Source: Nitrospira sp. (GTDB lineage: Bacteria > Nitrospirota > Nitrospiria > Nitrospirales > Nitrospiraceae). From it: a DNA stretch of 64,000 bases. Every line of letters starts with the position of its first letter. Position 1 is the first letter of the stretch. A program made the translations under genes and the position numbers. Location: NCBI GenBank assembly GCA_022226935.1, contig CP092081.1, positions 1,164,734 through 1,228,733 of the forward strand, read 5' to 3'. This document shows positions 41,145 through 61,686 of the stretch, one piece after another. The notes beneath the pieces are model-generated. The model had not been told where the DNA came from. It made no database searches and saw only the letters and a program-made list of their open reading frames with translations.

Positions 41145-41237
41145 CGCCTTCTCCTTTCAGGGTTTCAGCCACAGCTCAGGCAGGAGGTCTCAAGTTTCGC
41201 CCTCCGCAAGCCGATGACGTGGGAGGGGAGTATTTCC

Positions 41238-41960
41238 ATGGCCTTAGAAATCATCGAAATTGTCGAGGACGACCAGAGTCAGGCCAAGTTGCTTGATCAG
41301 ATTCTCCGGCAGGCGTCATTCCGGACCAATGTCGCATTCGACGGGCCGGCGGGCATGCAGGATGTCTGGCGGATCAAACCCTCCCTCATCATGGCCGATG
41401 ACAACCTTCCCGGACTGACTGGCCGGGAAATGTGCAAACGGTTACGGCAGGATCCTTCGACGAAACACATTCCTATCATTGTCATGTCGGGGTTTTCGTC
41501 CGAGGAACGCCGGGCGGAAGCACTGGACGCGGGGGCCGACGACTTTATCGTCAAACCCTATTCAGGGACGGAACTCCTCGCGCGCGTACGCGCGCTGCTG
41601 CGCCGTTGCCGGCAGAGCCAACCGCACGATGAAGAACTCGCCGAAGATCTCGCGCTCACTGAACATCTGTATCTCGCGGTGTATCGAGGAAAAAAGATCA
41701 CGCTGTCTGCGCACGAGTGGAACGCTCTGCGCCGATTGGCGACGACGGTCGGAAGCGTGGTCCCGCGCGAGGAACTCAAATCCCTGCTGTGGGGGGACGA
41801 CACACTCATGCACGACGGGGAGCTCGATCGATGCCTGGAACAGCTCAATCGAAAATTGTCGGATGACACCCCACCGGTGGACACAATCAAGATTGTTCCC
41901 GGAGGTTTCCGCCTGACGATGCTAGCCTCAGACGACTCCGGTGGACGTGCGATGCATTGA
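41238..41960 (+). CDS. Response regulator, receiver plus winged-helix output domain
   Basis: 240 residues. The receiver has the acidic cluster EDD at 10-12, phospho-acceptor about Asp54 (LIMADDNLPG) and Lys106 (FIVKPYS). The C-terminal domain (about 135-235) resembles a trans_reg_C winged helix: ITLSAHEWNALRRLATT, VPREELKSLLWG and the terminal IKIVPGGFRLT. I start at ATG 41238, preceded by GGAGGGGAG, rather than the frame opening at 41214. No histidine kinase is adjacent. It lies at the border of the exopolysaccharide and phosphate blocks and converges, with a 33-bp overlap, with the CHAD gene. Confidence 0.86.
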   Translation: MALEIIEIVEDDQSQAKLLDQILRQASFRTNVAFDGPAGMQDVWRIKPSLIMADDNLPGLTGREMCKRLRQDPSTKHIPIIVMSGFSSEERRAEALDAGADDFIVKPYSGTELLARVRALLRRCRQSQPHDEELAEDLALTEHLYLAVYRGKKITLSAHEWNALRRLATTVGSVVPREELKSLLWGDDTLMHDGELDRCLEQLNRKLSDDTPPVDTIKIVPGGFRLTMLASDDSGGRAMH

Positions 41961-42800
41961 CGAGGGGTCAAGACCTTCAGCAGTCCATACCTGGCCCGAT
42001 GCCAACGCATCCAATAACCACTGCAACCTAGCGGGAACATGCCGGGCTCGTTTCCGGGCTCGCTGCCAATCCTTGTGAATACGTGTCTGCGCCGACCGGC
42101 TTAGCTTCTTGCCCCAACGATGAAAATCGGCCAGTTCCTCATACCTTCCCAAAACGGCTTGAGCTCGTTTGAGCTGTGACAGCATGTCGCATTTGGCTGC
42201 CGCGCGTCCGGGCAACCATTCCGTCTGATACCGGATCGTCTTCAGGGCAAGACGGAGGGCATGGAGGCGTTTCCGTCTGGGCTTATCCGACGCATCTGCA
42301 ATGAGCTGTGTGAGCAGGCACTCGTGCTCATGACGCAAGTCGGCGAGTCGGCGGCTCCACGCATGAAGAGGGGAGCAGATCGCAGCCCGCGCCTGCTTCG
42401 AGACGACAAGCTCGATTTGGCGATAGGTCTCTGCGCGGTTTAGTTTTTTCTTCTGTTTCGTGAGCCGGTCACCGACCAGGGCCAGATCTTTTTGTCTGGC
42501 GTCACACCGGATCAAGTATTGCCGGAAGACCTGGAGCGCGCGCAGTTTGCTCAAGCCTCCCACACAATCCGCCACTGCTCGGGCCTGTTCCACTCTCCCA
42601 CAGAGTTCCAGCAATGCTTGAAGTCTTCGGCAGTACGTGCGGATGGCATGTATCGTGTCGGCATACTCCTTTCCCGCCATCACTTGGCGCAGCAAACGGA
42701 CAACCCTTGCGTGGTGAGAGGCAACCATCTTGCCCAACGCTTGAGTAGCGGACTGCGATACGGTATGAATAGAACCTCGCGGCCGCCTCATAGCAATCAA
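41928..42800 (-). CDS. CHAD domain protein (probable polyphosphate-binding)
   Basis: 290 residues, very basic. It contains the paired helical repeats of CHAD domains, each with conserved His and Arg/Lys: IHAIRTYCRRLQALLELCG in the first half and LHALRLALKTIRYQTEWL in the second. CHAD proteins bind polyphosphate and associate with polyphosphate granules. SixA on one side and the pst-phoU-ppx/gppA operon beyond support that role here. The 3' end overlaps the response regulator gene tail to tail. It has no catalytic motif, so it should be a structural or targeting protein. Confidence 0.87.
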   Translation of the reverse strand: MIAMRRPRGSIHTVSQSATQALGKMVASHHARVVRLLRQVMAGKEYADTIHAIRTYCRRLQALLELCGRVEQARAVADCVGGLSKLRALQVFRQYLIRCDARQKDLALVGDRLTKQKKKLNRAETYRQIELVVSKQARAAICSPLHAWSRRLADLRHEHECLLTQLIADASDKPRRKRLHALRLALKTIRYQTEWLPGRAAAKCDMLSQLKRAQAVLGRYEELADFHRWGKKLSRSAQTRIHKDWQRARKRARHVPARLQWLLDALASGQVWTAEGLDPSSMHRTSTGVV

Positions 42801-42887
42801 TCCAATTCTGCGCAGAGGCCCGACAGAAGATCACCCATTGCTTGAATTATCGCCTGTCCTGGGACTTGTCGTCTATCCCGAAGGAGA

Positions 42888-43391
42888 ATGCTGGTGGATT
42901 GTCTCTTGTTTCGACACGGCGTTGCTTACGATCGTGAGGACTGGCGGGGGAGCGACCAGAACCGGCCGCTCACAGAAAAAGGCCGGATTCGTACCAGGCA
43001 ATCGAGCAAAGGATTGCTCGCTCTGGGCCTTATCCCGACGCACATCCTTTCAAGCCCGCTGACACGCGCTCACGACACGGCCAAGATTGTGAAAGCGTTG
43101 ATGTCCACCGCACCACCGCTGCGGGTTTGTCAGGAGCTCCATCCGGAGGTCCCTCCGCGCGCGTTGATTGCATTGCTCAACACACTGCCGTCCGACGCGG
43201 TGGTCTTGTGCGTGGGGCACGAACCCCACTTGAGCGCGACAGCCGGAATTCTCCTGACAGGAAAGCGCTGCACCGGGCTCTCGCTCAAGAAGGCAGGCGC
43301 CTGCTCGATTCATCTCGAAGGATCCGTGCGGCCGGCGAAGGGCCACCTTAATTGGTGGCTCACGGCATCGCAGTTGCGGGAACTGGCGTGA
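42888..43391 (+). CDS. sixA: Phosphohistidine phosphatase SixA (histidine phosphatase family)
   Basis: About 167 residues. The catalytic RHG motif is at the N-terminus (CLLFRHGVAYDRED), followed by RPLTEKGRIRTRQ, the phosphate-pocket arginine in SSPLTRAHDTAKIV, and a second histidine in LCVGHEPHLSATAG. This is the short SixA form that removes phosphate from phosphohistidine of Hpt or PTS proteins. AAGGAG lies only one base before ATG 42888 but seven bases before GTG 42894, so the latter is a possible real start. It diverges from the CHAD gene and converges with ppx/gppA, a setting that links it to phosphate signalling. Confidence 0.87.
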   Translation: MLVDCLLFRHGVAYDREDWRGSDQNRPLTEKGRIRTRQSSKGLLALGLIPTHILSSPLTRAHDTAKIVKALMSTAPPLRVCQELHPEVPPRALIALLNTLPSDAVVLCVGHEPHLSATAGILLTGKRCTGLSLKKAGACSIHLEGSVRPAKGHLNWWLTASQLRELA

Positions 43392-43441
43392 ACCTATGCC
43401 CAGGAATGGTCAGAGACGCACGCGTTCCCAAGAGGCCCGAG

Positions 43442-44995
43442 TCAGCCGGCGTCGTCGTCTCGAGTGGTCGTAATGAACTGCACCGGCCGCTTGAAGACTT
43501 TCTCGAATAAATCGCTGCGGCCGCGCGCGGCCCAGATTTCCAACTCGGCATCCCCCGATACCTGCGCAGTGATCACCACCGTCTTGCCGACTCTGACCTC
43601 GACATTTTGCACCACCGAGAACTGGCTTCGATCCAAGCCGTCGGCGATTCGCAGTAGTGCCGACAACACATTGATGGCGCGCTGAGAGCCAGCCGGCAAC
43701 ACCGTAAATTCGTCATGCTTGCGGGTAGGTACTGAGCGCCGATGATACCGGGCGACATTCGCGATCAGATCGATTTCCTCGGCGGTAAATCCGGAGAGAT
43801 CACTGTTCTTGATCAAGTAGTACGCATGCTTGTGATGTTGTCGCGAATTGATCATGTAGCCGATGTCGTGCAGGATCGCCGCACACTCCAGCCATTCGCG
43901 TTCCCGTGGCCCGAACCCGTGCAACTCCTTCGTCTGGTCGAAGAGGCGCAACGCCAATCCTGCGACGTGCAGGGCATGCGTCTCCGAGACATGGCAGCGA
44001 TGGGCGAGGGCAAGGATGTTTCGTTTCCGCACATCCGGAATGTCCCGTTCCGCCTGAATACGTTCGTGGTGCCGCTGAATGAAGTCGTAAATAATGCCTT
44101 CGCGGATGGCTTTATCGCAGATGGTAAGCTCCGTTTTCTGCAGCAACTCCAGCAGAATTCTGAACACCATGGCGGCCGGAAGCAGGGTGTCCACACGCTT
44201 GGGATCGAGCCCTGGCATGGCCAGACGGGTTTTCAACGACGCCTCGGCGAGACGCTTTTCGACGGCTGCAATTTCTTTGGCGGATACCCTGGCCAGATTC
44301 AGCTGGGGGAGCGGGCGGCCGGTGCGTTGCAGGTGAATCACCTCGGCCAGGTTGCCTGCCATGCCGGACGTCGCGATAATCTGTTCCACCCGTTTGGTTT
44401 TATACGAGCCCAAGGCATTCTTAAGTTGAACGGTTACCGCCGCTTCCAACTCCCGAAGCATCGATTTGGACGGAGGTGTTTTGGACAGGTACAGATCCTT
44501 TAACCGAATCGCGCCCAGCTTCAGACTCCGAGCCTGAAAAATGGCCTCGCGATTCCCGACGATCACTTCCACCGAACCACCACCGATATCAATCACCAGC
44601 GTGGGCGATTCAGGCAGGGCCACGCTGTTCTGCACGCCGAGGAAAATCAATCGGGCTTCTTCCGCACCGGTAATCACCCGCACGGTGAGGCCGGTTTGCT
44701 GCATGACGTGATCTAAGAACTCGCCGCCGTTCTTCGCCTCCCGCACGGCGCTGGTCGCCACGCCTTCGATCTGTTCGTAGCCCTTATTCCGGGCCAGATT
44801 CACCAGGGTACGGATCACTTCCAATCCGCGCATCATGGCTTGATCGGACAGGCGCCGGGAGGTAAACACCCCGTCGCCCAGGCGCGTCATATCTTTAAAC
44901 CGGTCGAGGATTTTATAGGAGTAGTCCGGCTGGACCTCGGCTAACACCATATGAATGGAGTTGGTGCCGATATCCAGAACAGCCAGCTTGGGCAT
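43442..44995 (-). CDS. Ppx/GppA exopolyphosphatase family protein with HD domain
   Basis: 517 residues. The N-terminal ASKHA phosphatase domain (1-310) has LDIGTNSIHMVLAE and VIDIGGGSVEVIVG. The C-terminal part (about 320-500) is an HD-type domain with CAAILHDIGYMINSRQHHKH. Proteins of this form hydrolyse polyphosphate or pppGpp; which one cannot be decided here. It is the last gene of the pst operon, one base from phoU, which favours polyphosphate turnover under phosphate control. Confidence 0.9.
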   Translation of the reverse strand: MPKLAVLDIGTNSIHMVLAEVQPDYSYKILDRFKDMTRLGDGVFTSRRLSDQAMMRGLEVIRTLVNLARNKGYEQIEGVATSAVREAKNGGEFLDHVMQQTGLTVRVITGAEEARLIFLGVQNSVALPESPTLVIDIGGGSVEVIVGNREAIFQARSLKLGAIRLKDLYLSKTPPSKSMLRELEAAVTVQLKNALGSYKTKRVEQIIATSGMAGNLAEVIHLQRTGRPLPQLNLARVSAKEIAAVEKRLAEASLKTRLAMPGLDPKRVDTLLPAAMVFRILLELLQKTELTICDKAIREGIIYDFIQRHHERIQAERDIPDVRKRNILALAHRCHVSETHALHVAGLALRLFDQTKELHGFGPREREWLECAAILHDIGYMINSRQHHKHAYYLIKNSDLSGFTAEEIDLIANVARYHRRSVPTRKHDEFTVLPAGSQRAINVLSALLRIADGLDRSQFSVVQNVEVRVGKTVVITAQVSGDAELEIWAARGRSDLFEKVFKRPVQFITTTRDDDAG

Positions 44996-45664
44996 CTAGA
45001 AACTCGCGGTAGGAGCGACGTGCCGGATGTTCTTGCCTTCAACCATATAGACGACAAGTTCCGCAATGTTGGTCGCGTGATCGGCAATACGTTCGAGCGA
45101 TTTGGCCACGAACGTCAAACGAATCGCGCGGGTAATGGTGCGCGTGTCCTCCAGCATAAAGGAGAGCAATTCTCGAAACAACTGTTCGTTCAACTCGTCG
45201 ACGAAATCGTCGTCCGCGCAGACCTTCCTCGCCAACACCGGATCGGAATTCACGAAGGCGTCCAGGCACTCCTTGACCATGCGCATGGTCCAATTCGCCA
45301 TGCGTGGAATGTCGATGTATGGTTTGAGCTGCGGCTCGCCGTTCAATTCCAATGCACGCTGCGCGATGTTGTCGGCCAGGTCACCCATCCGTTCCAACTC
45401 GGAAGAAATCTTCATCCCCGTCGTGACGAATCGCAAGTCGCGCGCCGTCGGCTGCTGAAGCGCCAATAACTGGACGCAGAGTTCATCAATCTCGACATCC
45501 AAGCCATTGACGTCGTGATCCTGCTTGATGACGTCGACGGCCAAGTCGGAGTCGCGATCCACCAGAGCCTGCAAAGCCTGCTGAATTTGCGACTCGACCA
45601 GGCCGCCCATGCGGAGCAACTGCTGTTTAAGATGCGCGAGGTCTTGATCGAAGTGTCGTTGCAT
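44996..45664 (-). CDS. phoU: Phosphate signalling/transport accessory protein PhoU
   Basis: 222 residues, two homologous three-helix PhoU repeats. The N-terminal repeat starts HFDQDLAHLKQQLLRMGGL and contains VIKQDHDVNGLDVEIDE; the second has MVKECLDAF and AKSLERIADHATNIAEL, with the acidic metal-binding motifs E/DxxxD in each. PhoU represses PhoR/PhoB signalling through the Pst complex and limits uptake. It lies 21 bp after pstB and immediately before ppx/gppA on the same strand. Its length is slightly shorter than E. coli PhoU (241). Confidence 0.95.
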   Translation of the reverse strand: MQRHFDQDLAHLKQQLLRMGGLVESQIQQALQALVDRDSDLAVDVIKQDHDVNGLDVEIDELCVQLLALQQPTARDLRFVTTGMKISSELERMGDLADNIAQRALELNGEPQLKPYIDIPRMANWTMRMVKECLDAFVNSDPVLARKVCADDDFVDELNEQLFRELLSFMLEDTRTITRAIRLTFVAKSLERIADHATNIAELVVYMVEGKNIRHVAPTASF

Positions 45665-46567: not shown

Positions 46568-48229
46568 TCACACCGCCGAGGTCGCGAATCGTTTCCGAAG
46601 ACGATTGCGCAACATCACCGCCGTCAGATTCAATAGCACCACCACCAGAATCAGAATCAGGGTCGTCATGTAGACCATCGGCTTGGCCGCTTCGACATTC
46701 GGCGACTGAAATCCCACGTCATAAATGTGAAAACCCAGGTGCATGAATTTTCGTTCGAGATGGAGAAAGGGCAGATACTCATCCAGCGGGAGCGCCGGAG
46801 CCAACTTCACCACACCCGTGAGCATCAGCGGCGCGACTTCGCCGGCGGCTCTAGCCATGGCGAGAATCAATCCCGTCAAAATTCCGGGTAGCGCGCAGGG
46901 AAGAATGACATGCCGGATGGTCTCGAATTTCGTGGCGCCCAGACCGACTGATCCCTCGCGAAAATCGCGCGGCACTGCCGAGAGGCCTTCCTCGGTTGCG
47001 ACGATCACGACTGGAACCGTCAGTAAGGCCAGCGTCAACGAGGCCCAGAGAATACCGCCAGTGCCGAACGTGGGATTGGGCAACGCTTCAGGAAACAGGA
47101 TCTGGTCGATGCTGCCTCCCAACGCATAGACAAAGAACGCCAAACCGAACACGCCGAACACAATCGAGGGGACCCCTGCCAGATTGTTCACCGCGATTCT
47201 GACCAGACGGACGAGCGGTCCTTGCTTCGCATACTCCCGCAAGTACACCGCCGCCATGACCCCGAAGGGCATCACGGCCATGGTCATCAAAAACACCATC
47301 AGCACTGTGCCGAAAATGGCAGGGAAGATGCCGCCTTCCGTATTGGCCTCTCTGGGTTCGCTCGAAACAAAGAGCCACAGATTCCGCACATAAGCCTCCA
47401 GCTTCTCGAGCCAGTTCATCGCATTCGGCCGACTCACAGCGATGATCTGATCGAGCGACAGGCGCACCGACCGTCCGGTTGACAAAGTGAGGAGCAGCGC
47501 ATCCCGGCTTGCCTCTTTGTGCAACTGCTCCAACGCTTCGCTCTTAGAACGATATTCACGATCAAGTACGACAATTTCATCGACAAGACGCCGATCTGCT
47601 TCCGCAATGGCCGGATCAAGCCCGCCTTTCAACACCAAAGCCTGCCGCGCAAGTCTGGCCTTTTCGATACGATAGTTGATGGACCCGATTTCCTCCCGCT
47701 CAAGATGCTCGATTCGCTGGCGCAGCTGGTTGGCTTGGGCGACAAGTCTCAAGGCGGTTTCCCAGGTGGTTTCCAAGGCGCTTTCGCCGGCGGGCGTTGC
47801 CGCAGCGCCTTCTGCTGCCAAACTGATGCGGCCATAGGCGGGGCCCCATTCACGACGTTCCACGAACGTGAGATCTTCGGGAAAGGTCATCGACGCGATC
47901 TCTGCCTCGTTGATCCACCGGTATTCGGAACCGAATTGATCCCGGTTGCCGACTCGATATCGGAAGCGACGCTGTCCTGTTTGCGACTCGATCGTCATCG
48001 AGTGAGGTATCGTCTCCTCGCTGACGAGTTGTCCGATCACCGTCTCCTGGGTGTTCAACGTCACCTGCTGCAGCGCGCGCGGCCAGAACTGCCCCAGGCC
48101 ATTGATCATGATCAGAACCAGCATCCCGGCCACCATCAATAAGCTGATGGCCACACCAGATGCCGTCATCCAGACGAAGAGCTCCCCACCTCGCCAAAAC
48201 TTCTTCATGCGCGTGGATGGTTTACCCAT
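46568..48229 (-). CDS. pstA: Phosphate ABC transporter permease PstA with large periplasmic insert
   Basis: 553 residues, about 260 longer than E. coli PstA. The first membrane helix (about 18-42) is followed by a soluble region of about 250 residues with a coiled coil (LVAQANQLRQRIEHLEREE, DREYRSKSEALEQLHKE), resembling the DUF3333-containing PstA forms of marine gammaproteobacteria. The permease domain then begins near FPAIFGTVLMVFLMTMAV and has the EAA loop EEGLSAVPRDFREGSVGLGA. I start at ATG 48229, 8 bp inside the end of pstC, because the helix begins shortly after; the frame opens further upstream. It partners the similarly enlarged PstC. Confidence 0.9.
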   Translation of the reverse strand: MGKPSTRMKKFWRGGELFVWMTASGVAISLLMVAGMLVLIMINGLGQFWPRALQQVTLNTQETVIGQLVSEETIPHSMTIESQTGQRRFRYRVGNRDQFGSEYRWINEAEIASMTFPEDLTFVERREWGPAYGRISLAAEGAAATPAGESALETTWETALRLVAQANQLRQRIEHLEREEIGSINYRIEKARLARQALVLKGGLDPAIAEADRRLVDEIVVLDREYRSKSEALEQLHKEASRDALLLTLSTGRSVRLSLDQIIAVSRPNAMNWLEKLEAYVRNLWLFVSSEPREANTEGGIFPAIFGTVLMVFLMTMAVMPFGVMAAVYLREYAKQGPLVRLVRIAVNNLAGVPSIVFGVFGLAFFVYALGGSIDQILFPEALPNPTFGTGGILWASLTLALLTVPVVIVATEEGLSAVPRDFREGSVGLGATKFETIRHVILPCALPGILTGLILAMARAAGEVAPLMLTGVVKLAPALPLDEYLPFLHLERKFMHLGFHIYDVGFQSPNVEAAKPMVYMTTLILILVVVLLNLTAVMLRNRLRKRFATSAV

Positions 48230-50450
48230 GGCTATATTTATCCCGAAGCCGTTGGCGGATGAGTTCGGCCAGCGAATTGATGGCAAAGGTGACAATGAAC
48301 AGGAGGAGAGCCGCCAGGAACAACACCCGGTACAGACTTCCGCCGTGCGGCGCCTCCGGAATTTCGACGGCTATATTGGCCGACAACGTCCGGAACCCGT
48401 TGGCCCAATTCCAGTCCAGAATCGGCGTGTTTCCCGTGGCCATCAACACGATCATGGTTTCGCCGATCGCACGCCCAAAACCGATCATCACGCCCGAAAA
48501 AATTCCCGGGCTGGCCGACAACAACACCAGGTGCAATACGGTTTGCCAACGGGTGGCGCCTAACGCCAGAGACCCGGCGATGTGGGATTTCGGCACGTTG
48601 GAGAGCGCTTCTTCGGCAATGCTGTAGATCACTGGTACGATGGCAAATCCCATCACGATGCCGACCACCAAGGCGTTACGTTGATCATATTGGATACCGA
48701 GCCGATTCGAGAGCCAGGCCTTGATGTTGCCGTCGAACCACCAGACTTCGAACAAAGAATGGGCCCAGAGACAACCGCCGATCCCGAGAGCCAGAATGGG
48801 CATCAACAGCAGCGCTTCATGCCCCGGTGCGAAGTGCCGCTTGATGGATACGGGACAGAGATGCCAGGAGAAGGACGCCACGATGACCAGCATCGGCAAG
48901 ACCAGCACCATGCCGGCAAGCGCCGGAAGCATACGCTCGAGAAGGGGAGCCAGCCAGAGTCCGGCCAGAAAGCCAAGCACCACGGTCGGCAAGGCGGCCA
49001 TGACTTCAATAATCGGTTTAACTTTTGAGCGAAAATCATGATGCATGAACTGGGACGTGCAGATCGCGGCGAGAATGGCGATAGGCACGGCAAGGAACAG
49101 GGCGTAGATCGTTCCTTTCAGGGTTCCGAAGGCCAGCGGAAGCAGGCCCAGCTTCGGTTCCACATCGTCCGACCCGGAAGACGATTGCCAGACATAGGCA
49201 GGCTGATCGTACCCCTCGTACCAGACCTTGCCGAAGAGGGTTTCCAAGGTGACTTCGGGATAGAGGTTCTGGACCTGGTAGAGCGACAGTTGTCCGGCTC
49301 CATCCAGAGCGATCACCGCATCTCCCTTCGGCGCAAATGCGACGGCACGAATAGGAAATTCGCCGATGGCCACGCGCAGCAACGTTTGCGAAGAGGTAGC
49401 ATGGTGCAAGAACACATGTCCCTTCGCATCACCCGTGACAAATCCTTTGACCCGTTGCGACGGAGCAAACGCGGTCACCGGCGCAGCGTGAGAGCGGAAC
49501 GTATGCATTTGGGTGAGCGTCCATCCCGATGGCACGTCGGAACGCCGAACGAGCCCCCACGTTGATACGGATCCGTCGGCCGCCGTGACCACGAGGCTAC
49601 GATCACCGCTGAGAAACCCCAACATGCTCACCTCGGTGTTCGAAGCAGCGACCGCATAGGACGCTCTCACCTCCGGCGGTTGCGTTTCTGACAATCCGAT
49701 GTGGACGACATGCCCGTCGGAAGTACCGACGTACAGATGTTCAAGCGACGCATCCAACGCCAGGGATGTGATCGCGCCGGGCAGTTGAGGCAACTCCGCG
49801 ATCTTCAGATCGGTTCCCGCCGGATCATCAAGAGCAATTCTCGCAATGAGCAGCCGTCCTGCTTTGGTGGCAAAAGCAAGGAGACTGCCCTGGTCGTTGG
49901 AGCGATAGGCCAGACGGACAATGGAGCTATTCGTCACGGGAATGGGTGCGCCGGCTTGGATGTTCGGTCGTTTCCGCCGTTCGCCCTGTTCGGAAAACTC
50001 CGTCGCGGTGCCGATCTTCAACAATAAGATTTCGCCGTCGGCCGTACCCACGGCAAGACGCGCGCTGTGGCCACCACCTGAGGCCATTGCCGTCACGTGC
50101 CTCGCGGTCAGCTGCGCCGGCAGTTCCAACGGAATCGGCCGGCCGGAGGCCAGGTCAAAAAATTGAATCGCACCGGAGGTGAAGACCTGCGCGATTTCCC
50201 GATGTTCGTCCACTGCCACCTGCGCGGGACTTCCGTCGGATAATAAGGCAGGGACACTCAAGCGTTGGCTCAATTTCGCACTCGGCGCCGTGAAGAGCGG
50301 GGTCACCTCGCGAAACAGAAAAAAGAAGATCCCCAGAATACTGACAATAGTCGCCAGCCCGCCCACGGTAATGACGGCGCGGGCAAGCCGGTCGATCAGT
50401 GACCGCAACCGCACAGGCGTGAAAAGGAATCGTAGAGAGTTCGTCTGCAT
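48222..50450 (-). CDS. pstC: Phosphate ABC transporter permease PstC with a seven-bladed propeller-like periplasmic domain
   Basis: 742 residues, more than twice the usual PstC length (about 320). One membrane helix at about 28-50 is followed by about 370 soluble residues with seven similar strand motifs (GAIQFFDL, DGEILLLKI, AGRLLIARI, DGHVVHIGL, DGSVSTWGL, KGHVFLHHA, AGQLSLYQV), the spacing of a beta-propeller. From about residue 450 the permease domain follows: LKGTIYALFLAVPIAILAA, then EAA loop EEALSNVPKSHIAGSLALGA. The start ATG overlaps the pstS stop (TGATG). It forms the channel with PstA. The propeller likely faces the periplasm and could bind PstS or the PstA insert. Confidence 0.92.
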   Translation of the reverse strand: MQTNSLRFLFTPVRLRSLIDRLARAVITVGGLATIVSILGIFFFLFREVTPLFTAPSAKLSQRLSVPALLSDGSPAQVAVDEHREIAQVFTSGAIQFFDLASGRPIPLELPAQLTARHVTAMASGGGHSARLAVGTADGEILLLKIGTATEFSEQGERRKRPNIQAGAPIPVTNSSIVRLAYRSNDQGSLLAFATKAGRLLIARIALDDPAGTDLKIAELPQLPGAITSLALDASLEHLYVGTSDGHVVHIGLSETQPPEVRASYAVAASNTEVSMLGFLSGDRSLVVTAADGSVSTWGLVRRSDVPSGWTLTQMHTFRSHAAPVTAFAPSQRVKGFVTGDAKGHVFLHHATSSQTLLRVAIGEFPIRAVAFAPKGDAVIALDGAGQLSLYQVQNLYPEVTLETLFGKVWYEGYDQPAYVWQSSSGSDDVEPKLGLLPLAFGTLKGTIYALFLAVPIAILAAICTSQFMHHDFRSKVKPIIEVMAALPTVVLGFLAGLWLAPLLERMLPALAGMVLVLPMLVIVASFSWHLCPVSIKRHFAPGHEALLLMPILALGIGGCLWAHSLFEVWWFDGNIKAWLSNRLGIQYDQRNALVVGIVMGFAIVPVIYSIAEEALSNVPKSHIAGSLALGATRWQTVLHLVLLSASPGIFSGVMIGFGRAIGETMIVLMATGNTPILDWNWANGFRTLSANIAVEIPEAPHGGSLYRVLFLAALLLFIVTFAINSLAELIRQRLRDKYSHG

Positions 50451-51460
50451 CAGCGAATCTTGCCGAGTTGTTTCTCAGCCAGTTGCCCGGAGACGGGAAA
50501 GTATCCATCCCTGAGCACGTCGGACTGCCCCTCTTTGCTGTAGACGTACGCCAGAAACTCTTTGACGATCGGGGAGAGGGGTTTACCTGGAGCCTGGTTC
50601 ACATAGATGTAGAGATACCGCCACAGGGGATACGTTCCGTTCTTCGTATTGGCATGCGTCGGCTCAATGAACGGCTGTCCTGCCTTCGCCGCCAGCGGAA
50701 TCATTCTCACTCCCGACGTGCTATATCCGATTCCGCTGTATCCGATGCCGTATCGATCTTCGCTGATGCCCTGCACTACGGAGGCGGATCCCGGCTGCTC
50801 CTTCACCTGATCCTTGAAGTCGCCATTTTTCAGCGCATGTTCCTTGAAGAAGCCATACGTACCGGATGCGGAGTTTCGGCCATAAAGACTGATGGGCGCA
50901 TTGGCCCAATCCCCGTTATGGCCGAGTTGCCCCCACCGAGTCATGTCGGTGGGGTGCCCCTGGCGGCGCGACTTGGAAAACAGGGCATCCACTTCGGCCA
51001 TGGTGAGCCCTGCCACTGGGTTGTCCTTGTTCACGAAAAGCGCCAGCGCATCCACCGCGACCGGGTAGGCCGTGGGGGGGTACCCGAACTTGGCCTCGAA
51101 GGCGTCGATCTCGCTGGACTTCATCGTCCGTGACATGGGTCCCAACTGAGCCGTATTTTCGATCAACGCGGGCGGGGCCGTGCTCGATCCTTTACCTTCC
51201 ACTTGAATTTTCACATTGGGATACTGTTTGCGAAATCCCTCCGCCCACAGGGTGATGAGATTGTTCAACGTATCGGACCCGATGCTGTTGATCGTCCCGG
51301 ACACGCCGCTGACCTTTGCATAGGGCTTGATCTCGGCATCGATGGTAATCGTTTCAGGTGCGGGAGCATCAGCCGGCGCGGCGCTGACCAGACAGGTCGT
51401 CATAAACGGACCCAACACGGTCAGCGTGAGACTCAAACAAATCTGACGTGAGACGACCAT
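50450..51460 (-). CDS. pstS: Phosphate-binding protein PstS (operon copy)
   Basis: 336 residues. A signal peptide (MVVSRQICLSLTLTVLG, cleavage near VSA) exports it. The phosphate-site segments are SIGSDTLNN, QVEGKGSSTAPPALIE and MSRTMKSSEI, then VDALALFVNKDNP and the loop NSASGTYGFFKE with the conserved S-G-T binding residues. GGAGGAAT precedes ATG 51460, which is why I reject the earlier frame opening at 51535. It is the first gene of pstSCAB-phoU-ppx/gppA. A phased TAACG/TTACA/TGATG repeat lies 73 bp upstream (51533-51559), shared with the two other pstS genes. Confidence 0.93.
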   Translation of the reverse strand: MVVSRQICLSLTLTVLGPFMTTCLVSAAPADAPAPETITIDAEIKPYAKVSGVSGTINSIGSDTLNNLITLWAEGFRKQYPNVKIQVEGKGSSTAPPALIENTAQLGPMSRTMKSSEIDAFEAKFGYPPTAYPVAVDALALFVNKDNPVAGLTMAEVDALFSKSRRQGHPTDMTRWGQLGHNGDWANAPISLYGRNSASGTYGFFKEHALKNGDFKDQVKEQPGSASVVQGISEDRYGIGYSGIGYSTSGVRMIPLAAKAGQPFIEPTHANTKNGTYPLWRYLYIYVNQAPGKPLSPIVKEFLAYVYSKEGQSDVLRDGYFPVSGQLAEKQLGKIR

Positions 51461-51532
51461 AGAAAAGATTCCTCCGGTTAAAAAATAATGAACGATTGCA
51501 CCGTCGAGCATAGGGTTGTGGCATTTCCTGGC

Positions 51533-51559
51533 CATCAGTTCTATGTAAACACCACGTTA
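51533..51559 (-). promoter_or_regulatory. Pho-box-like phased direct repeat upstream of operon pstS
   Basis: Reading the minus strand, TAACG (51559-51555), TTACA (51548-51544) and TGATG (51537-51533) are spaced exactly 11 bp apart. PhoB/PhoP regulators bind 7-bp-plus-4 or 5+6 direct repeats in this phase. The same three-unit order occurs upstream of the other two pstS genes. The last unit ends 73 bp before the pstS start. Binding is inferred. Confidence 0.6.
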
Positions 51560-51671
51560 ACTTTCCTTCGGTGCGCTCCCTCCGCAGCGGTCTCCGATCA
51601 CTGGGCAAATTAACAACACCGACAACCGCCGTTGAGGCACCTGCAACAGTGACCCCCTACCATGTCGCGTC

Positions 51672-52364
51672 ATGACCATTTCCATCGTACACATCATTGA
51701 GGACGAACCGCTCCACGCCGCACTTCTTGATCGCGCCTTGCGCCTGGCGGGCCTTGACACCTTGCTGTCCGACGACGGCGCCAACGGATGGCGGGATATT
51801 CAACGCCGCCGACCGACACTCATTCTGCTTGATCTCATGTTGCCAGGACTCAGTGGTCAGGAGATCTGTCGGATGGTGCGCCAAAGCTCCGCAACCCGGC
51901 ATATCCCGATCATTATGCTGACGGCGGTCGGCGGAGAAACCGAACGGATCGCCGGCCTGGATATGGGCGCAGACGATTATGTCGTGAAGCCGTTTAGTCC
52001 AAAAGAGGTCGTCTCGCGCGTGCGGGCCGTTCTTCGCCGAAGCGAAGCATCAGCCGTGGGGCTCGGGCCCATCGTGAATGCGGCTGTCAGGATGCAGGGA
52101 CCTTACGTTGCGGTTCTGTTGGGGGAACGAGAACTCATCCTGTCACGAAAAGAAACGGTGCTGCTCCAGGCGCTACTGGATCGCGAGAACACGCTAGTGG
52201 ATGCAGAGGAATTGATACCGCTTCCGAAAGGGGAGCGGCCTATATTGCCACTCCAAGAGTTGGATCGCGACATCCGTGATCTTCGCCGAAAACTGGAGAA
52301 TGCCGGTGCGGGGTCCGTCGACGTGTTGCCTGGATTTCGCTATCGATTCACGTCGCGCCTCTGA
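51672..52364 (+). CDS. PhoB-like response regulator (receiver plus winged-helix-like domain)
   Basis: 230 residues. A canonical receiver has acidic EDE at 10-12, Asp54 (LILLDLMLPG) and Lys106 (YVVKPFS). The C-terminal half has a helix-turn-helix-like LSRKETVLLQALLDREN and RDIRDLRRKLENAG followed by VDVLPGFRYRFTS, a diverged trans_reg_C domain. It is divergent from pstS across a 212-bp gap that carries the phased repeat, so it may control or be controlled with the pst operon. A histidine kinase partner is not in the window. Confidence 0.85.
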   Translation: MTISIVHIIEDEPLHAALLDRALRLAGLDTLLSDDGANGWRDIQRRRPTLILLDLMLPGLSGQEICRMVRQSSATRHIPIIMLTAVGGETERIAGLDMGADDYVVKPFSPKEVVSRVRAVLRRSEASAVGLGPIVNAAVRMQGPYVAVLLGERELILSRKETVLLQALLDRENTLVDAEELIPLPKGERPILPLQELDRDIRDLRRKLENAGAGSVDVLPGFRYRFTSRL

Positions 52365-52806: not shown

Positions 52807-53325
52807 CTAGATTCCTTCCCGGCAGGACCCAGCGCACTTTCCGCCGCCTTCTCCTTGCGCAGGCGAACAGCGCACCGCGACAACTCGTACTGCCCCCAAT
52901 GCCAGAACGATGGCCCCTAACGACAGGAGCTTCGCTTGATCGGCTTCTTTGAACCACAGGGAAATGATTTCCGTCAGCATGACGACCAGAATCGTATCGA
53001 CGATAAACGTCACTTTGACGCGCCCTTCCGAGAAATAGGTCAGCGTCGTCTTGAAGACCTCGACGACCGCGAGAAGGATCAGCGTATCCACAATAATCTG
53101 CCGAAGCCCGACTTCAACCGGTGCATCAAGTAACAGCTTGATATCCAGAAACGTTTTGATGACTCCTCCCGTCAGGGCGATGAGGATCGTCAGAATCAGA
53201 AGACTCAACACGCCTTTGATGCCCTTCATCCAGAGGTCGGTGAGATCCATTGCGATGGCGCGCCCGGCGAAGTCTGCGACACGTGGAACCCGCATCGGGA
53301 AATTGGTGAACGTCATAACCTGCAT
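52807..53325 (-). CDS. PsiE-family membrane protein
   Basis: About 172 residues with four predicted membrane helices: GVLSLLILTILIALTGGVI, IIVDTLILLAVVEVFKT, VTFIVDTILVVMLTEIISLW and LLSLGAIVLALGAVRVVAV. The layout and motifs match the phosphate-starvation-inducible PsiE family. Its function is not established in any organism I know. The start is chosen at ATG 53325 with AAGGAGG closely upstream; ATG 53316 is also possible. Its place in the phosphate block agrees with the family name. The C-terminus is basic and cytoplasmic. Confidence 0.8.
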   Translation of the reverse strand: MQVMTFTNFPMRVPRVADFAGRAIAMDLTDLWMKGIKGVLSLLILTILIALTGGVIKTFLDIKLLLDAPVEVGLRQIIVDTLILLAVVEVFKTTLTYFSEGRVKVTFIVDTILVVMLTEIISLWFKEADQAKLLSLGAIVLALGAVRVVAVRCSPAQGEGGGKCAGSCREGI

Positions 53326-53440
53326 CGTCCTCCTTGTGAATGACAGAATCATGGTTGAGCAACTTGCCCGGTGGGTCCTTTTCGGATCCCGTGGACCACA
53401 ACGGTCATCGCGAATGTACCTCGTGATTGTTCCGTGATAT

Positions 53441-53467
53441 TCACAACGGCATTACAACAGGGTTACG
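53441..53467 (+). promoter_or_regulatory. Phased direct repeat, distal array upstream of the 53.6-kb regulator
   Basis: TCACA (53441), TTACA (53452) and TTACG (53463) are each 11 bp apart on the plus strand, in the gap between the PsiE-like gene and the plus-strand regulator. It resembles the pstS arrays except for the third unit. Confidence 0.5.
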
Positions 53468-53520: not shown

Positions 53521-53547
53521 TTACACAGCCGTAACAAGCGGGATACA
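53521..53547 (+). promoter_or_regulatory. Phased direct repeat, proximal array upstream of the 53.6-kb regulator
   Basis: TTACA (53521), TAACA (53532) and ATACA (53543) at exact 11-bp spacing, ending 32 bp before the regulator start. Almost the same sequence recurs at 54341-54356 before the porin gene (TTACACAG...GTAACA). Suggests autoregulation or PhoB control. Confidence 0.55.
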
Positions 53548-53579
53548 GGCAGGCAACTCGGCGCCGCTAGCATCAGGCT

Positions 53580-54290
53580 ATGCAGCAGGCGACGGAACCA
53601 CTACGCCATCAGAGTATCGCGGTGCTTCTTGTGACCAAGGACAAAGAATTTGCCACGATCCTCCACCATCTCTTGCGACCGAACGGATATCAGGTGTCCC
53701 TCGCGCCGACCGCTGAAGTCGCCTTGTCCCTCGCTTCTCGTGCCGCCTTCAAGCTGGCGCTCATCGACCGGCGTCACAACGTCGTGTCTGCGTTGCGGCA
53801 GGACCAGACATTGCGGCACATTCCGATGATTGGGCTTCAACCACAAGGAGAAGCGTGCACGGAAGAACAGATGGTGGAAGAGCTGGCCGCAGGATTTGAC
53901 ATCGTGATCGAGTCTCATCGGCATCGAGAATGGCTGGCGATCATCAAAGCGCTGCTCCGAAGACAGGAATTGCAGGCCGCGCCCCTCAGGGAGTTTCGAG
54001 TCCATGCGCTCTCCATGAACCTCGATCGACACGAGGTCAAAGTCAAAGGCAAATCGATCCAGCTCACGCTCAAGGAGTTCCACATTCTGCGCGCGCTCTT
54101 GCAACACCCGGGACGCGTGCTGACGCGCCAGGAACTGCTCAACCTTGTCTGGGGAGAAGACTACGCGCTCGAGGAACATGCATTAGACGTGCATATCCAC
54201 GCGCTCCGTCAGAAGCTGGAAGACAAGCCCTCAGTGCCACAATGGATTCTCACGGTCAGGGGCGTGGGATACAAATTGTCCGCCGACTGA
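53580..54290 (+). CDS. PhoB-like regulator with degenerate receiver domain
   Basis: 236 residues. The C-terminal half (about 135-236) is a well-kept OmpR/PhoB winged helix: LTLKEFHILRALLQHPGRVL, TRQELLNLVWG, DVHIHALRQKLEDK, WILTVRGVGYKLS. The receiver is unusual. The acidic pair is replaced by Thr19-Lys20, the conserved Lys is replaced by Glu111 (DIVIESHRH) and the conserved Thr/Ser by Gly, although an Asp63 remains (LIDRRHN). It may therefore act without standard phosphorylation. Two phased repeats lie upstream, and a porin gene follows 70 bp downstream. Confidence 0.85.
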   Translation: MQQATEPLRHQSIAVLLVTKDKEFATILHHLLRPNGYQVSLAPTAEVALSLASRAAFKLALIDRRHNVVSALRQDQTLRHIPMIGLQPQGEACTEEQMVEELAAGFDIVIESHRHREWLAIIKALLRRQELQAAPLREFRVHALSMNLDRHEVKVKGKSIQLTLKEFHILRALLQHPGRVLTRQELLNLVWGEDYALEEHALDVHIHALRQKLEDKPSVPQWILTVRGVGYKLSAD

Positions 54291-54340: not shown

Positions 54341-54367
54341 TTACACAGTGGTAACAGGGCTTGAACG
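54341..54367 (+). promoter_or_regulatory. Pho-box-like phased repeat upstream of the porin gene
   Basis: TTACA (54341), TAACA (54352) and GAACG (54363), each 11 bp apart. It ends about 70 bp before the porin ATG. TGTGAT at 54372-54377 could be a -10 element at the distance expected for PhoB-type activation. It partly duplicates the array at 53521. Confidence 0.5.
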
Positions 54368-54438
54368 TGGGTGTGATGCCGACCGCCTACCGTCCGCCCG
54401 CGTTCACGAAATCAACAGACACAAGGAGGATGTTCGTA

Positions 54439-55986
54439 ATGCACAGACGCCCGTTGATTGCATCCATCAGTGGCCTCGTCGGGACCGCGATGTTCAGCCT
54501 GTCCCTGACTGCATCCTGGGCCGATGATTCTTCACGGTTGGCCCCCCATGCCCCGCCGTCACCGACCGTCGTAGCCCAAACGATGGGCCCGGCTCCGAAC
54601 GGAACCGGCACTCCGCCGCCTGCGCCCGACATTCCTCTCGGCGGCACGTCGATCGAAGACCTGCTGATGCAGAAGGGAACGATTACCAAAGAAGAGTGGA
54701 TTCAGATTCGGGCCGAACAAGAATACAGGGGCGGGGAGCGGGACAAGCGGATCGACACCCTGGACGAATGGAAGTCGAAAGCGGAGTTGCTGCCGATCCT
54801 CAGAGATAAGGTGAATTTCGGACTGAACGCGCTCCAATGGTTGTACACCCACCAGGATGCGCATGTGCCTGAAGGACGAAGTCAGGACAACCTGTCCATC
54901 CGGCGGTCGGAAATTCTCTTCTGGGGCCGTATCAGCGACACCCTGCCGCGCTGGCACACGTTGATGGAGTTCCAAAGCATCAATCTCTTGAACAACACAC
55001 CGACCGGAGGCAGCGCCGCCACCGGTGGCGTACCGACCTCGTCGACATTCTTCCGGGAAGCCTACCTCGACATACGGCCGGTGCAGTCCTGGGCGCCGAA
55101 CGTCAATTATTTTCGCATGGGTATCTTTCGAATGCCCTTCGGGATCTTCACGGAAACCTCCGGCGGCTTGCGCGATGTCATCAGCTCTCCGTACCTCACG
55201 TCGGTCGGCTCCGGAGTCGGCAATCGTACCGGATCGGCCGGGACCGTCGAATTTCTCCAAGAGCGTGACTACTTCCTCGATATGCGCGGGAAACTGTTCA
55301 ACCGGCTCGAGTATGTGGTCGGTATTATGAACAACAACAATTATGAGGCCAACGCGACCGGATCGAACGCCCCGAAAAGTTTCTACTCCCGCGTACGATT
55401 ATTCGGAAGCGACGTGTCGTTCATCAGTTTCACCACGATTCAAGGCGAATCGAACAACGCCAATACCAATATCAACGGCCGGGGCAAGGGCGCTTTCGAT
55501 CGCTACGGATTAGACTTCCGCTATACGTCAAAAATTTTGCCCGGCTTCATGGTGCAGGGAGAAGTTTGGCAGGGGCATGACGGGGCCAACCAGACCACGG
55601 TCGGGCGGCCGGCCAACGGTGCCTGCGATGTCCAAGCCATCTGCGGCGGCTCCGGTGCACCCGGGGTGCAACGGCGCACCTGGTACGTACTGGCCAAATA
55701 TCTCATCACTGACGGACCCTTCGAAAACTTCGAGCCGGTGGTCATGTACGAACAATTCGACCCGAATACCAGAATCGACAATGACCTCTACACCAGAACC
55801 ATCGTCGGCCTGAGCTACTATTTCGAAAACTTTCCTCCCAAGGTGCAGTCCAAGCTGCAAGTCAATTACGAGTTCCGCCATCACTCGGGCAACGGTCCCA
55901 ACAATGTCGTCGATCCGACACGCGGCGTCGGCGACCCTTTCGCCCAGAATGCCTTCTTGGTACAGTGGCAAATACGATTCATGTAA
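54439..55986 (+). CDS. Porin_O_P-type outer-membrane porin (probable phosphate porin)
   Basis: 515 residues. Signal peptide with cleavage near SWA-DD. A Pro-rich linker and then IEDLLMQKGTITKEEWIQI, a short helical N-terminal motif also present in the second porin (LEDLMLSKGQMSIDEW), precede the beta-barrel. The barrel has alternating aromatic strands (YFLDMRGKLFNRLEYVVGI, RLFGSDVSFISFTT) and ends with QNAFLVQWQIRFM, a terminal aromatic typical of outer-membrane insertion. It resembles phosphate/pyrophosphate-selective porins. I choose ATG 54439 because AGGAGG is nine bases upstream. A phased repeat precedes it. Solute specificity is inferred from context. Confidence 0.83.
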   Translation: MHRRPLIASISGLVGTAMFSLSLTASWADDSSRLAPHAPPSPTVVAQTMGPAPNGTGTPPPAPDIPLGGTSIEDLLMQKGTITKEEWIQIRAEQEYRGGERDKRIDTLDEWKSKAELLPILRDKVNFGLNALQWLYTHQDAHVPEGRSQDNLSIRRSEILFWGRISDTLPRWHTLMEFQSINLLNNTPTGGSAATGGVPTSSTFFREAYLDIRPVQSWAPNVNYFRMGIFRMPFGIFTETSGGLRDVISSPYLTSVGSGVGNRTGSAGTVEFLQERDYFLDMRGKLFNRLEYVVGIMNNNNYEANATGSNAPKSFYSRVRLFGSDVSFISFTTIQGESNNANTNINGRGKGAFDRYGLDFRYTSKILPGFMVQGEVWQGHDGANQTTVGRPANGACDVQAICGGSGAPGVQRRTWYVLAKYLITDGPFENFEPVVMYEQFDPNTRIDNDLYTRTIVGLSYYFENFPPKVQSKLQVNYEFRHHSGNGPNNVVDPTRGVGDPFAQNAFLVQWQIRFM

Positions 55987-58746: not shown

Positions 58747-59865
58747 TCAGTTGGTCAGGGTCGCATTCTGGCCGGGGAGGCCGAGTGCCAGGACATTTTT
58801 CTTGACCTGTTTCATCGGAAGAGGGAAAAATCCCGCCTTCATCACGGCTTCCTGGCCTTCGCGACTCGTCACAAAGGTGAGAAACTCTTGCACGGCGGGC
58901 GCGAGGGGAGCCTTGGGAGATTTGTCGACGTAGAGATACAGCATCCGGCGAAGGGGATAGGTTTGGTCGGAGACAGTTGCCGCCGTAGGCGCGACAAAGG
59001 GCATGCCCTGATTTTCTGCGAGCGGAACGATTCGCACGTTGGACGTTTCCAGCCCCAATCCACTGTAGCCGATCCCCAGTTGATCACGCGTGAGGTCGAG
59101 AATAACGGAAGCCGCCCCGGGTTCCTCACGAACAGTGGGGACAAATTCACCACCGGCCAGACAATGTTCTTGAAAGAACGCGCGCGTTCCGGATCGCCGG
59201 TCCCGTCCATACAGTCTGACAGGAGCCTTCTCCCAACCGTCTTGAAGGCCCAGCGCGCCCCATTGAGACAGGGTCGCTTGTAACCCGCGGTTATGGGTTG
59301 TTGAAAACATGGCATCGACCTGGTCGAGCGTGAGACCCTGGATGGGATTGTCACGATGGACGTAGAGCGCCACGGCGTCAACCGCCACAGGAATGCCGGT
59401 CGGTTCATAGCCATGTTGTGCGACAAATTGTTTCACTTCCGCATCAAGCAACTCGCGTGAGGAAGCCACCAGGGAAACAAAGGTCGGTCGTTCTTCTTTA
59501 AGGGCAATTTTCCCGCTCAATTTGGCCGGTGGCTGAATGAACTCATTGACCGCTTTGGTCGATCCGCCTCCGCTCACGTTGACCGAGACATTCGGCTGGC
59601 GCCGTTGAAACTCACCCGCAAGACGACTCATGAGGAGGGACATCGTATCGGAGCCCTGAACGCGAAGACTTCCTGCCGCTTGAGTGTGCGGATTGTATGG
59701 CACCAATCCTTCTTCCATTGCCAGACTTGCCGTCGGCCCTGCGTTCTCAGCCTGCGCCACCGGCATCGGAATCACGGCCAAGGCACCGGCTGTCGCCATG
59801 ATTCCCGCGAAGCCCACAACGACGGTTCGCCGTCCCCATTCCTGCCTGTGTCCCTGACTCAGCAT
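58747..59865 (-). CDS. pstS: PstS-like phosphate-binding protein (second copy)
   Basis: 372 residues. The signal segment TVVVGFAGIMATAGALAV ends at a possible cleavage after VAQA. Binding segments are VQGSDTMSLLMSRL, VNVSGGGSTKAVNEFI, VASSRELLDAEV, VDAVALYVHRDNP, RDRRSGTRAFFQEH and TRDQLGIGYSGLG. GGAGG lies eight bases before ATG 59865, so I choose it over the upstream ATGs up to 59949. The phased array TAACA/TAACA/TGATG is 73 bp upstream, the same distance as for the operon pstS. It has no adjacent permease genes and presumably uses the one PstCAB. Confidence 0.9.
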   Translation of the reverse strand: MLSQGHRQEWGRRTVVVGFAGIMATAGALAVIPMPVAQAENAGPTASLAMEEGLVPYNPHTQAAGSLRVQGSDTMSLLMSRLAGEFQRRQPNVSVNVSGGGSTKAVNEFIQPPAKLSGKIALKEERPTFVSLVASSRELLDAEVKQFVAQHGYEPTGIPVAVDAVALYVHRDNPIQGLTLDQVDAMFSTTHNRGLQATLSQWGALGLQDGWEKAPVRLYGRDRRSGTRAFFQEHCLAGGEFVPTVREEPGAASVILDLTRDQLGIGYSGLGLETSNVRIVPLAENQGMPFVAPTAATVSDQTYPLRRMLYLYVDKSPKAPLAPAVQEFLTFVTSREGQEAVMKAGFFPLPMKQVKKNVLALGLPGQNATLTN

Positions 59866-59937
59866 GCTCATATCCTCCGCTAGAGTAGTGGTCTCGTCTG
59901 TAGCTCGACTCATCCTACGAATCCATGATTGCTGGCA

Positions 59938-59964
59938 CATCACTGGCATGTTACGGATGTGTTA
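59938..59964 (-). promoter_or_regulatory. Pho-box-like phased repeat upstream of second pstS
   Basis: Minus strand TAACA (59964-59960), TAACA (59953-59949), TGATG (59942-59938), all 11 bp apart, with CAATC at the next 11-bp step. It ends 73 bp before the start at 59865. Same unit order as at the other two pstS genes. Confidence 0.6.
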
Positions 59965-60171: not shown

Positions 60172-60251
60172 GCCGAAATATCTAATCACTCTGCTCGTCC
60201 TCGATGTCGCTTCCAGAATCTTTGAGAGTTAACTGCGACCATAGGTCTCTG

Positions 60252-60278
60252 TAATGCCTCGGTAACGCCTCCTCATTA
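60252..60278 (+). repeat. 11-bp direct repeat TAATGCCTC/TAACGCCTC before the second porin
   Basis: GTAATGCCTC and GTAACGCCTC are tandem 11-bp repeats, followed by CATTA at the same phase, ending about 50 bp before the porin ATG. May be a second operator. Confidence 0.4.
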
Positions 60279-60327
60279 CCCTCCGGCCGACACGACGGGT
60301 TCAACTCAACCAATTGGGAGGGCAAGC

Positions 60328-61686
60328 ATGAGGCGACGATGGGGTCGGTACGTAATGAGCGCGTGTGCTGTGATGGCACTGTGTGGCCTGCAAGCGGGAG
60401 TGGCGCGAGCCGGTGGGTTGGAAGACCTGATGCTCAGCAAGGGACAAATGTCGATCGACGAGTGGGTGGAACTGAAGGCTGAAGAGGAAAAACGCGAAGC
60501 CAAAGTCTTTGAAGAAAGCCGCGGCGTCGGCGATACACCGGTCAAGGCCAAGTGGTACGAAAAGATCAGCATCCGCGGGTATAGCCAGATGCGTTTTAAT
60601 CGATTGGGCAACCCGAACGGCAATTTGCTCAGCGATCAAGGTGATAAATCGATCGGAGATAATAACGGCTTTTTCCTACGACGCGCCCGAATGATTTTGA
60701 GCGGCGAGGTGCATCCGCGGTTGTTCGTCTATATCCAGCCGGATTTTGCCTCCACCGTCGGAGGCACGAACCATGCTGTGCAGTTGCGCGACTGGTATGC
60801 GGATTTATTCCTCACGGAAAACAAGGAATGGCGTATCAGAGCAGGTCAATCTAAAGTCCCCTATGGGTTCGAGAATCTGCAATCCAGTCAAAACCGACTG
60901 GCGCTCGACCGGAACGACGCCTTGAATAGCGCGGTGTCGAACGAGCGTGATTTCGGTTTGTTTCTGTACTACGCGCCTACCCATGTCCGCGAACGATTCC
61001 GCCGACTGGTGGACAGCGGTCTGAAGGGATCCGGTGACTACGGCATGCTGGGTTTCGGTGTATACAATGGTCAAACCGCCAACCAGCCTGAGCGCAACGA
61101 CGATAAACACATGATCGTCCGTGCTGCCTATCCCTACGAATTTGCGAACGGGCAGATATTCGAGGTCGGAGTCAGTGCCTATCAAGGTATGTTTAATGTA
61201 ACGAAAGCCGCTATCGTGCCACTCGGAGGAGGTGCGGCTGTCACACCACGAGGAAACAACAATATCAGGGACGAACGAGTCGCGGCGTACTTTGTGCTCT
61301 ATCCACAACCGTTCGGCATACAGGCGGAATATACCGTCGGACAGGGACCACAACTGAGCGCCGACAGGCGATCGATCGACCAAAGCGATCTCTACGGCGG
61401 CTATGTCCAAGCCATGTACAACTATAAATGTTCGACCTACTGCCTGAACGTATTTCCATTCGTGCGCTACCAGGAATATTACGGCGGAAAAAAGCACGAG
61501 GCCAATGCACCGAGAAACGTCGTGCGTGAACTGGAACTCGGAGTCGAGTATCAGTTTAACCAGGCCATCGAGCTCACTGCGATGTACGCCTTTACGAATC
61601 GAACGTCGTCTGCTGCGACGGGATCGAATCCGTACCAGGAAAACTATGGGAATTTGATCCGGTTTCAGCTGCAGTGGAATTATTAG
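60328..61686 (+). CDS. Porin_O_P-type phosphate porin (second copy)
   Basis: 452 residues. GGGAGGG precedes the ATG. Signal peptide ends near ARA-GG. LEDLMLSKGQMSIDEWVEL near the mature N-terminus matches the first porin. The barrel includes ISIRGYSQMRFNRLG, FFLRRARMILSGEVHPRLFVY and QAGSTKVPYGFENLQ-like IRAGQSKVPYGFENLQSSQN, hallmark of the phosphate-selective OprP/OprO group. It ends QENYGNLIRFQLQWNY. It should sit in the outer membrane for phosphate or polyphosphate uptake. It diverges from the second pstS across a repeat-rich regulatory region. Confidence 0.88.
   Translation: MRRRWGRYVMSACAVMALCGLQAGVARAGGLEDLMLSKGQMSIDEWVELKAEEEKREAKVFEESRGVGDTPVKAKWYEKISIRGYSQMRFNRLGNPNGNLLSDQGDKSIGDNNGFFLRRARMILSGEVHPRLFVYIQPDFASTVGGTNHAVQLRDWYADLFLTENKEWRIRAGQSKVPYGFENLQSSQNRLALDRNDALNSAVSNERDFGLFLYYAPTHVRERFRRLVDSGLKGSGDYGMLGFGVYNGQTANQPERNDDKHMIVRAAYPYEFANGQIFEVGVSAYQGMFNVTKAAIVPLGGGAAVTPRGNNNIRDERVAAYFVLYPQPFGIQAEYTVGQGPQLSADRRSIDQSDLYGGYVQAMYNYKCSTYCLNVFPFVRYQEYYGGKKHEANAPRNVVRELELGVEYQFNQAIELTAMYAFTNRTSSAATGSNPYQENYGNLIRFQLQWNY

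Follow-up and report, generated by a model that had tools for sequence, protein, structure and literature searches.

The window, a stretch of 64,000 nucleotides (C1:1164734-1228733) from a Nitrospira genome that was searched over all of its 4,229,538 bases (4.23 Mb), holds a cluster of phosphate genes that includes three paralogous copies of pstS, all on the minus strand. The first copy, pstS1 (50450-51460, PBP_like_2), heads a pstS-C-A-B-phoU operon and has its ATG at 51460 with a Shine-Dalgarno sequence; pstS2 occupies 58747-59865, with a likely ATG at 59865 and the Shine-Dalgarno sequence GGAGG 8 nt upstream; and pstS3 occupies 62550-63581. Between and beside them lie rr1, a response regulator divergent from pstS1 (51672-52364, plus strand), a psiE-family gene (52807-53352, minus; PF06146, E 2.6e-12), rr2, an OmpR/PhoB-type regulator with an intact winged helix and a degenerate receiver domain (53580-54290, plus), and two genes of the Porin_O_P family, porin1 (54439-55986, plus, with a Shine-Dalgarno-supported start at about 54439) and porin2 (60328-61686, plus; E 1.4e-37). 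PstC (48222-50450, minus) is 742 aa long and carries a beta-propeller/WD40-like insert at about residues 160-400, before the permease domain, which is unusual in a phosphate permease subunit. A hint of polyphosphate links comes from the interval 41214-44995, adjoining phoU (44996-45664, minus) and the pst operon, which holds a Ppx/GppA-HD gene, a gene with a CHAD domain and, at 41.2 kb, a third odd regulator of the OmpR type.

Each pstS gene is preceded by a phased array that a sequence-only reading had described as TWACR-N6-TWACR-N6-TGATK, and the coordinates and strand of all three arrays are as it gave them. On the minus strand, the pstS1 promoter (51507-51559) contains the units TAACG (51559-51555), TTACA (51548-51544) and TGATG (51537-51533), followed by a fourth, AAATG (51526-51522), and the -10 hexamer TATGCT (51512-51507). 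The pstS2 promoter (59912-59964, minus) reads TAACA, TAACA, TGATG and CAATC with the -10 TAGGAT at 59917-59912, and the pstS3 promoter (63658-63710, minus) reads TAACA, TAACG, TGATT and CAACG with the -10 TAGGAT at 63663-63658; the three-unit spans initially recognized were 59964-59938 and 63710-63684, respectively. The fourth unit, 11 bp beyond the third, had been missed, as had the -10 hexamer and the further arrays that precede psiE, both porins and the regulator at 53.6 kb. As a spelling of the unit, YGTWACR is preferable to TWACR. The TGATK form of the third unit is a degenerate one seen in this lineage, and TAAYR or TTACA stands in its place elsewhere.

The 27-bp pattern has exactly three exact matches on both strands of the whole genome, each before one of the clustered pstS genes, and its backward-read control has none genome-wide. 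Allowing one mismatch adds a single site in the genome, which precedes the Porin_O_P gene located at 54.4 kb. With up to two mismatches the window contains seven matches against 0.99 expected in shuffles, and the array thus survives the comparison with shuffled sequence that the sequence-only reading had proposed. Subtracting the coordinates bears out the spacing of 73 bp to the start codon at two of the sites, those of pstS1 (with its start at 51460) and pstS2 (at 59865), these being the starts with a well-placed Shine-Dalgarno sequence; the corresponding distance for pstS3 is 103 bp. We rejected the 73-bp distance as a meaningful constraint, because the constant distance runs instead to the -10: TANNNT starts exactly 20 bp after TGATK at all three pstS sites. 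The mechanically called starts of pstS1 (51535) and pstS2 (59949) fall within the operator and ahead of the predicted -10; the Shine-Dalgarno-supported starts are to be preferred.

As an independent test, we used a position weight matrix (PWM) trained on other genomes and two models that left the window genome out, namely R1, built on sequence only from 58 promoters, and R2, built from close relatives. In the window the matrix picked out seven sites, which span 51.5 to 63.7 kb, fall within a single 12-kb phosphate island and precede the three pstS genes, rr2, porin1, psiE and porin2; the weakest of them scored 9.0, compared with a best score of 6.8 in 20 simulated windows. Over the whole window genome R1 returned four hits with E up to 10, at pstS2 (E 7.8e-9; PWM 53.6), pstS3 (3.9e-5; PWM 36.2), pstS1 (7.1e-5; PWM 39.3) and the rr2 promoter (0.047; PWM 23.8). 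R2 gave its six top ranks to island promoters, with E values from 3.5e-8 to 0.026. A search for two half-sites plus TANNNT at +47 gave exactly five matches in 4.23 Mb, all inside the island. In these pattern and model searches, which pre-filter candidates, strong operators turned up in the genome only within the island. Matches of R2 at 4.053 Mb (E 0.59) and 0.196 Mb (E 1.5) were too weak to be accepted as regulon members outside the island. The former, an array-like match at G000:C1:4053177-4053211 (minus; L164), is flanked by a polyphosphate-kinase-like gene and by a short gene for a zinc-finger (DksA/TraR-like) protein.

Among the additional island promoters, that of rr2 (53521-53573, plus; R2 E 3.5e-5) has the units TTACA, TAACA, ATACA and CAACT and the -10 TAGCAT (53568-53573). 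Its mRNA is probably leaderless, since exactly 6 nt separate the -10 from the ATG (53568-53582); the same layout occurs in five relatives (L005-L008 and L011), and rr2 in L018-L020 has a leader with a Shine-Dalgarno sequence instead. The porin1 promoter (54341-54393, plus; PWM 15.8, R2 E 8.4e-4) contains TTACA, TAACA, GAACG and TGATG with TACCGT at 54388-54393. The remaining promoters are weak scorers. That of psiE (53413-53465, minus; PWM 13.3, R2 E 0.026) reads TAACC, TAATG, TGAAT and GAACA with TACATT at 53418-53413, and its array is kept in close relatives; that of porin2 (60230-60282, plus; PWM 9.0, E 0.18) reads TAACT, ATAGG, TAATG and TAACG with TACCCT at 60277-60282. A possible array before rr1 (51611-51663, plus; TAACA, ACAAC, TGAGG and CAACA, with TACCAT at 51658-51663) gave an R2 E value of 0.36, which is not significant alone.

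Conservation was examined in 80 loci from Nitrospira and other Nitrospirota genomes, recovered with PstS1 as query, from which 96 pstS upstream regions were taken. Of the 96 regions, 82 contain a pair of TWACR units at a distance of 11 bp, against an average of 0.42 in shuffles, and every other spacing occurs in three regions at most, except 22 bp (39 regions), where the third unit falls. Overall, the full element comprises four half-sites in 11-bp phase (approximately KTAACR, KTAACR, TRAYR and YAAYR), nine bases and a -10 hexamer TANNNT that starts 47 bp from the first TAAC, and it contains no separate -35. Because the alignment was anchored on units 1 and 2, their conservation is to some extent built in, unlike that of units 3 and 4 and the -10. 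The conserved non-anchor columns comprise G-TRAYR in the third unit, G-YAAYR in the fourth, T-A-N-N-N-T at +47 and an A three bases before the first unit. TANNNT, a weak consensus when taken alone, is found at +47, or 9 bp after unit 4, in 61 of 82 regions; other offsets from +23 to +99 account for four at most, and the 18 matches at +22 are unit 3 itself. The same 9-bp spacing is present in all seven window sites.

By matrix score (>11), 93 of the 96 pstS regions carry the array, although these relatives are not independent samples, and absence of conservation before orthologous pstS genes, which the sequence-only reading had named as grounds for dismissing the operator, is not what we found. 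Across the 80 loci the matrix gave 225 hits above 11, compared with one for the reversed matrix, mainly before pstS, porins, psiE and rr2; matches upstream of porin and psiE genes had been foreseen. Within the family R1 was positive in 53 of 59 genomes, covering 16 of 18 genera, and the other six genomes gave nothing at E 0.01. Across the phylum it was positive in 61 of 148 genomes; outside the family, most genomes lacked a hit at 1e-3 with strict filters. Twelve loci were fetched from the phylum hits, eleven from outside the window's order and one from inside it. In most of them the array lies directly before a pstS or pstC gene only distantly related to that of the window, as in L147, L149, L153 and L156.

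The clustering of three paralogous pstS genes could suggest that the arrays are functionless sequence inherited with duplicated upstream regions, or else chance. We consider this vanishingly improbable. The spacers differ among the three pstS sites while the units and the -10 spacing are held, and the array also precedes non-homologous genes (porins, psiE and rr2) and the diverged pst genes of other families. Chance expectation is far lower than the observed counts, and a chance origin was rejected by shuffles, the backward-read control, simulated windows and spacing counts alike. Instead, the arrays are predicted to be the PHO boxes, or PhoB-type operators, of this Nitrospira lineage, a reading to which we assign a probability of roughly 0.9. 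At least two direct-repeat units with an 11-nt period are present, and four were resolved; the array takes the place of a -35, with a -10 hexamer following about 10 bp downstream; and it lies upstream of phosphate-acquisition genes, above all pstS. These are the testable defining features of a PHO box; PhoB binding and phosphate induction are predictions. The operator is most likely part of a phylum-wide Nitrospirota PHO-box promoter, of a known kind with a lineage-specific consensus. The proposal of a lineage-specific Pho operator is accordingly supported by the 11-bp repeats and by their conservation before pstS, porin and psiE genes.

The genome's highest-scoring PhoB and PhoR candidates are neighbors at 3.36 Mb, unlinked to the island. 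PhoR is the best match by about 100 bits; both proteins score below the NCBI equivalog cut-offs (234 bits versus 296 for PhoB and 317 versus 334 for PhoR), and their orthology therefore rests on best hit, tree and linkage. Of the 59 family genomes, 58 encode a PhoB homologue, at an identity of 70% or more and often as two copies, and a close homologue lies downstream of pstB in L022, L028, L047, L050, L063 and L073, with the gene order pstSCAB-phoU-phoB in L063 and pstSCAB-phoU-phoB-phoR in L047. In the tree, these pst-operon proteins of sister lineages group with the 3.36-Mb protein, and the window's genus appears to have kept the unlinked copy only. Several genera (for example G025, G032 and G036) have at least two PhoB copies about 70-78% identical to P0001, compared with one in the window's genus, and one of the copies is apparently on the same contig as pst-type arrays. 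phoB is absent from the island; because no array precedes it, autoregulation as in E. coli was rejected.

The sequence-only reading had looked to the regulators at 51.7 kb (rr1) and 53.6 kb (rr2) as binders. The arrays would then be the operator of one or both island regulators, with PhoB uninvolved. Both are OmpR-type and adjacent to arrays, and the winged helix of rr2 is a good match (PF00486, E 2.5e-29). However, the array is intact in L008, L010 and L013, which have no adjacent rr1, and it extends throughout other genera and into other Nitrospirota families, whereas close homologues of rr1 and rr2 were found only in the loci nearest the window (L005-L021); among the loci examined the two did not track the motif. 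The recognition helix RTVDVH[IV]RRL is common to the PhoB group and E. coli PhoB in our alignment, and rr1 and rr2 have LDRDIRDL and LDVHIHAL in place of VDVHIRRL. Aligned with E. coli PhoB, the rr2 receiver has also lost the acidic pair and the conserved lysine, which suggests that rr2 may act independently of phosphorylation. Finally, rr2 itself bears an array. On phyletic range, recognition helix and the status of rr2 as a target we discarded the window regulators as binders, and their sole control of the arrays is very unlikely. The 3.36-Mb PhoB is probably the protein that binds the arrays, judging from these comparisons. Being lineage-restricted, with a changed recognition helix and lost receiver residues, rr2 is more likely a target than a master, and at least this one of the two window regulators is probably controlled by the operator.

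Compatible with the PHO-box reading, and possible though doubtful, is a second-tier role in which PhoB would switch on rr2, which in turn would compete with PhoB or assist it at the pst and porin promoters. The strong rr2 array (R2 E 3.5e-5), its PhoB-like DNA-binding domain and degenerate receiver, and a start that is conserved and probably leaderless in the closest relatives would fit such a role. Against it, the rr2 recognition helix is unlike that of PhoB, rr2 is missing from most genera, and no rr2-specific variant of the motif was found. A further speculation, which we hold to be improbable, is that the genus has its whole Pho regulon contracted into the 12-kb island, under the control of just one, unlinked PhoB, with the leaderless, array-controlled rr2 as a phosphorylation-independent feed-forward or shut-off arm on the same boxes.

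In the PhoB family, the phosphorylated regulator occupies one face of the DNA as tandem dimers and recruits sigma factor in place of a -35 contact. Transferred to the PHO boxes described here, phosphate limitation would lead the sensor PhoR to phosphorylate the PhoB orthologue; two tandem PhoB dimers would occupy the four half-sites on one DNA face; and bound PhoB would recruit the housekeeping sigma factor in place of the -35 contact. As a result, pstS1-pstCAB-phoU, the two extra pstS genes, the outer-membrane porins, psiE and the auxiliary regulator rr2 would be switched on. In this scheme, sequence, spacing, -10 register, conservation, target genes and the phoB and phoR candidates were obtained directly, and binding, phosphorylation, sigma recruitment and the phosphate response are carried over from the PhoB family. 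The PhoB-sigma step draws in part on PMC4415409.

Nitrospira are major nitrite oxidizers, and none of the literature searched describes a PHO box from Nitrospira or Nitrospirota, an absence that does not prove novelty. Most likely, the switch itself is of a known type, and what is new is its placement in these organisms. An operator defined together with its -10 register makes the phosphate regulon readable from genomes and metagenome bins, and it corrects the start codons of pstS1 and pstS2. The question of the binder is directly testable, since PhoB and rr1/rr2 predict opposite outcomes.

The PhoP box of Bacillus subtilis consists of TT(A/C/T)ACA repeats at an 11-bp phase, letters that are very close to the Nitrospira KTAACA, the regulators there being the Gram-positive PhoP/PhoR. 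B. subtilis boxes share the 11-nt repeat features (PMC4415409). The Streptomyces PHO box GTTCACC, bound by PhoP, likewise forms 11-nt direct repeats (PMC4415409), with different letters in a high-GC actinobacterial consensus. The box of cyanobacterial SphR (PhoB), CTTAACCT, occurs in at least three tandem copies with 3-bp linkers and has both the 11-bp period and the TTAAC core in common with the Nitrospira array (PMC1906773); its consensus continues CCT where Nitrospira has R, and the two, from different phyla, were compared on their repeat units. In general, a PHO box is built from two direct repeats of 11 nt whose consensus depends on the species (PMC4415409), and that of E. coli lies 10 bp upstream of TAN3T/A (PMC1906773). 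The pstS promoter of E. coli MG1655 reads CTGTCAT-N4-CTGTCAT-N4-CTTACAT-N4-CTGTCAC-N10-TATTTT, which puts the start of the -10 at 50 nt from the first C, and Nitrospira likewise has four half-sites, an 11-bp period, no -35 and a -10 at 50 nt. In a common register CTGTCAT corresponds to NKGTAAC, and the third E. coli unit, CTTACAT, itself contains TTACA. Scanned over 6 kb of E. coli sequence, the Nitrospirota matrix placed its best position in exactly this register (score -5.7, compared with -32 to -93 for its neighbors). E. coli autoregulates phoB, whereas Nitrospira phoB has no box of its own in this genome. The Nitrospirota unit, YGTWACR, does not match the E. coli consensus CTGTCAT, a mismatch that does not exclude membership of the broader PHO-box family because the consensus varies between species. 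The earlier statement that the array differs from the E. coli box holds for the half-site letters (GTAAC versus GTCAT) but not for the architecture, which is identical in both: between Nitrospirota and E. coli, the geometry of the PhoB promoter has been held to the base while the letters of its half-sites changed.
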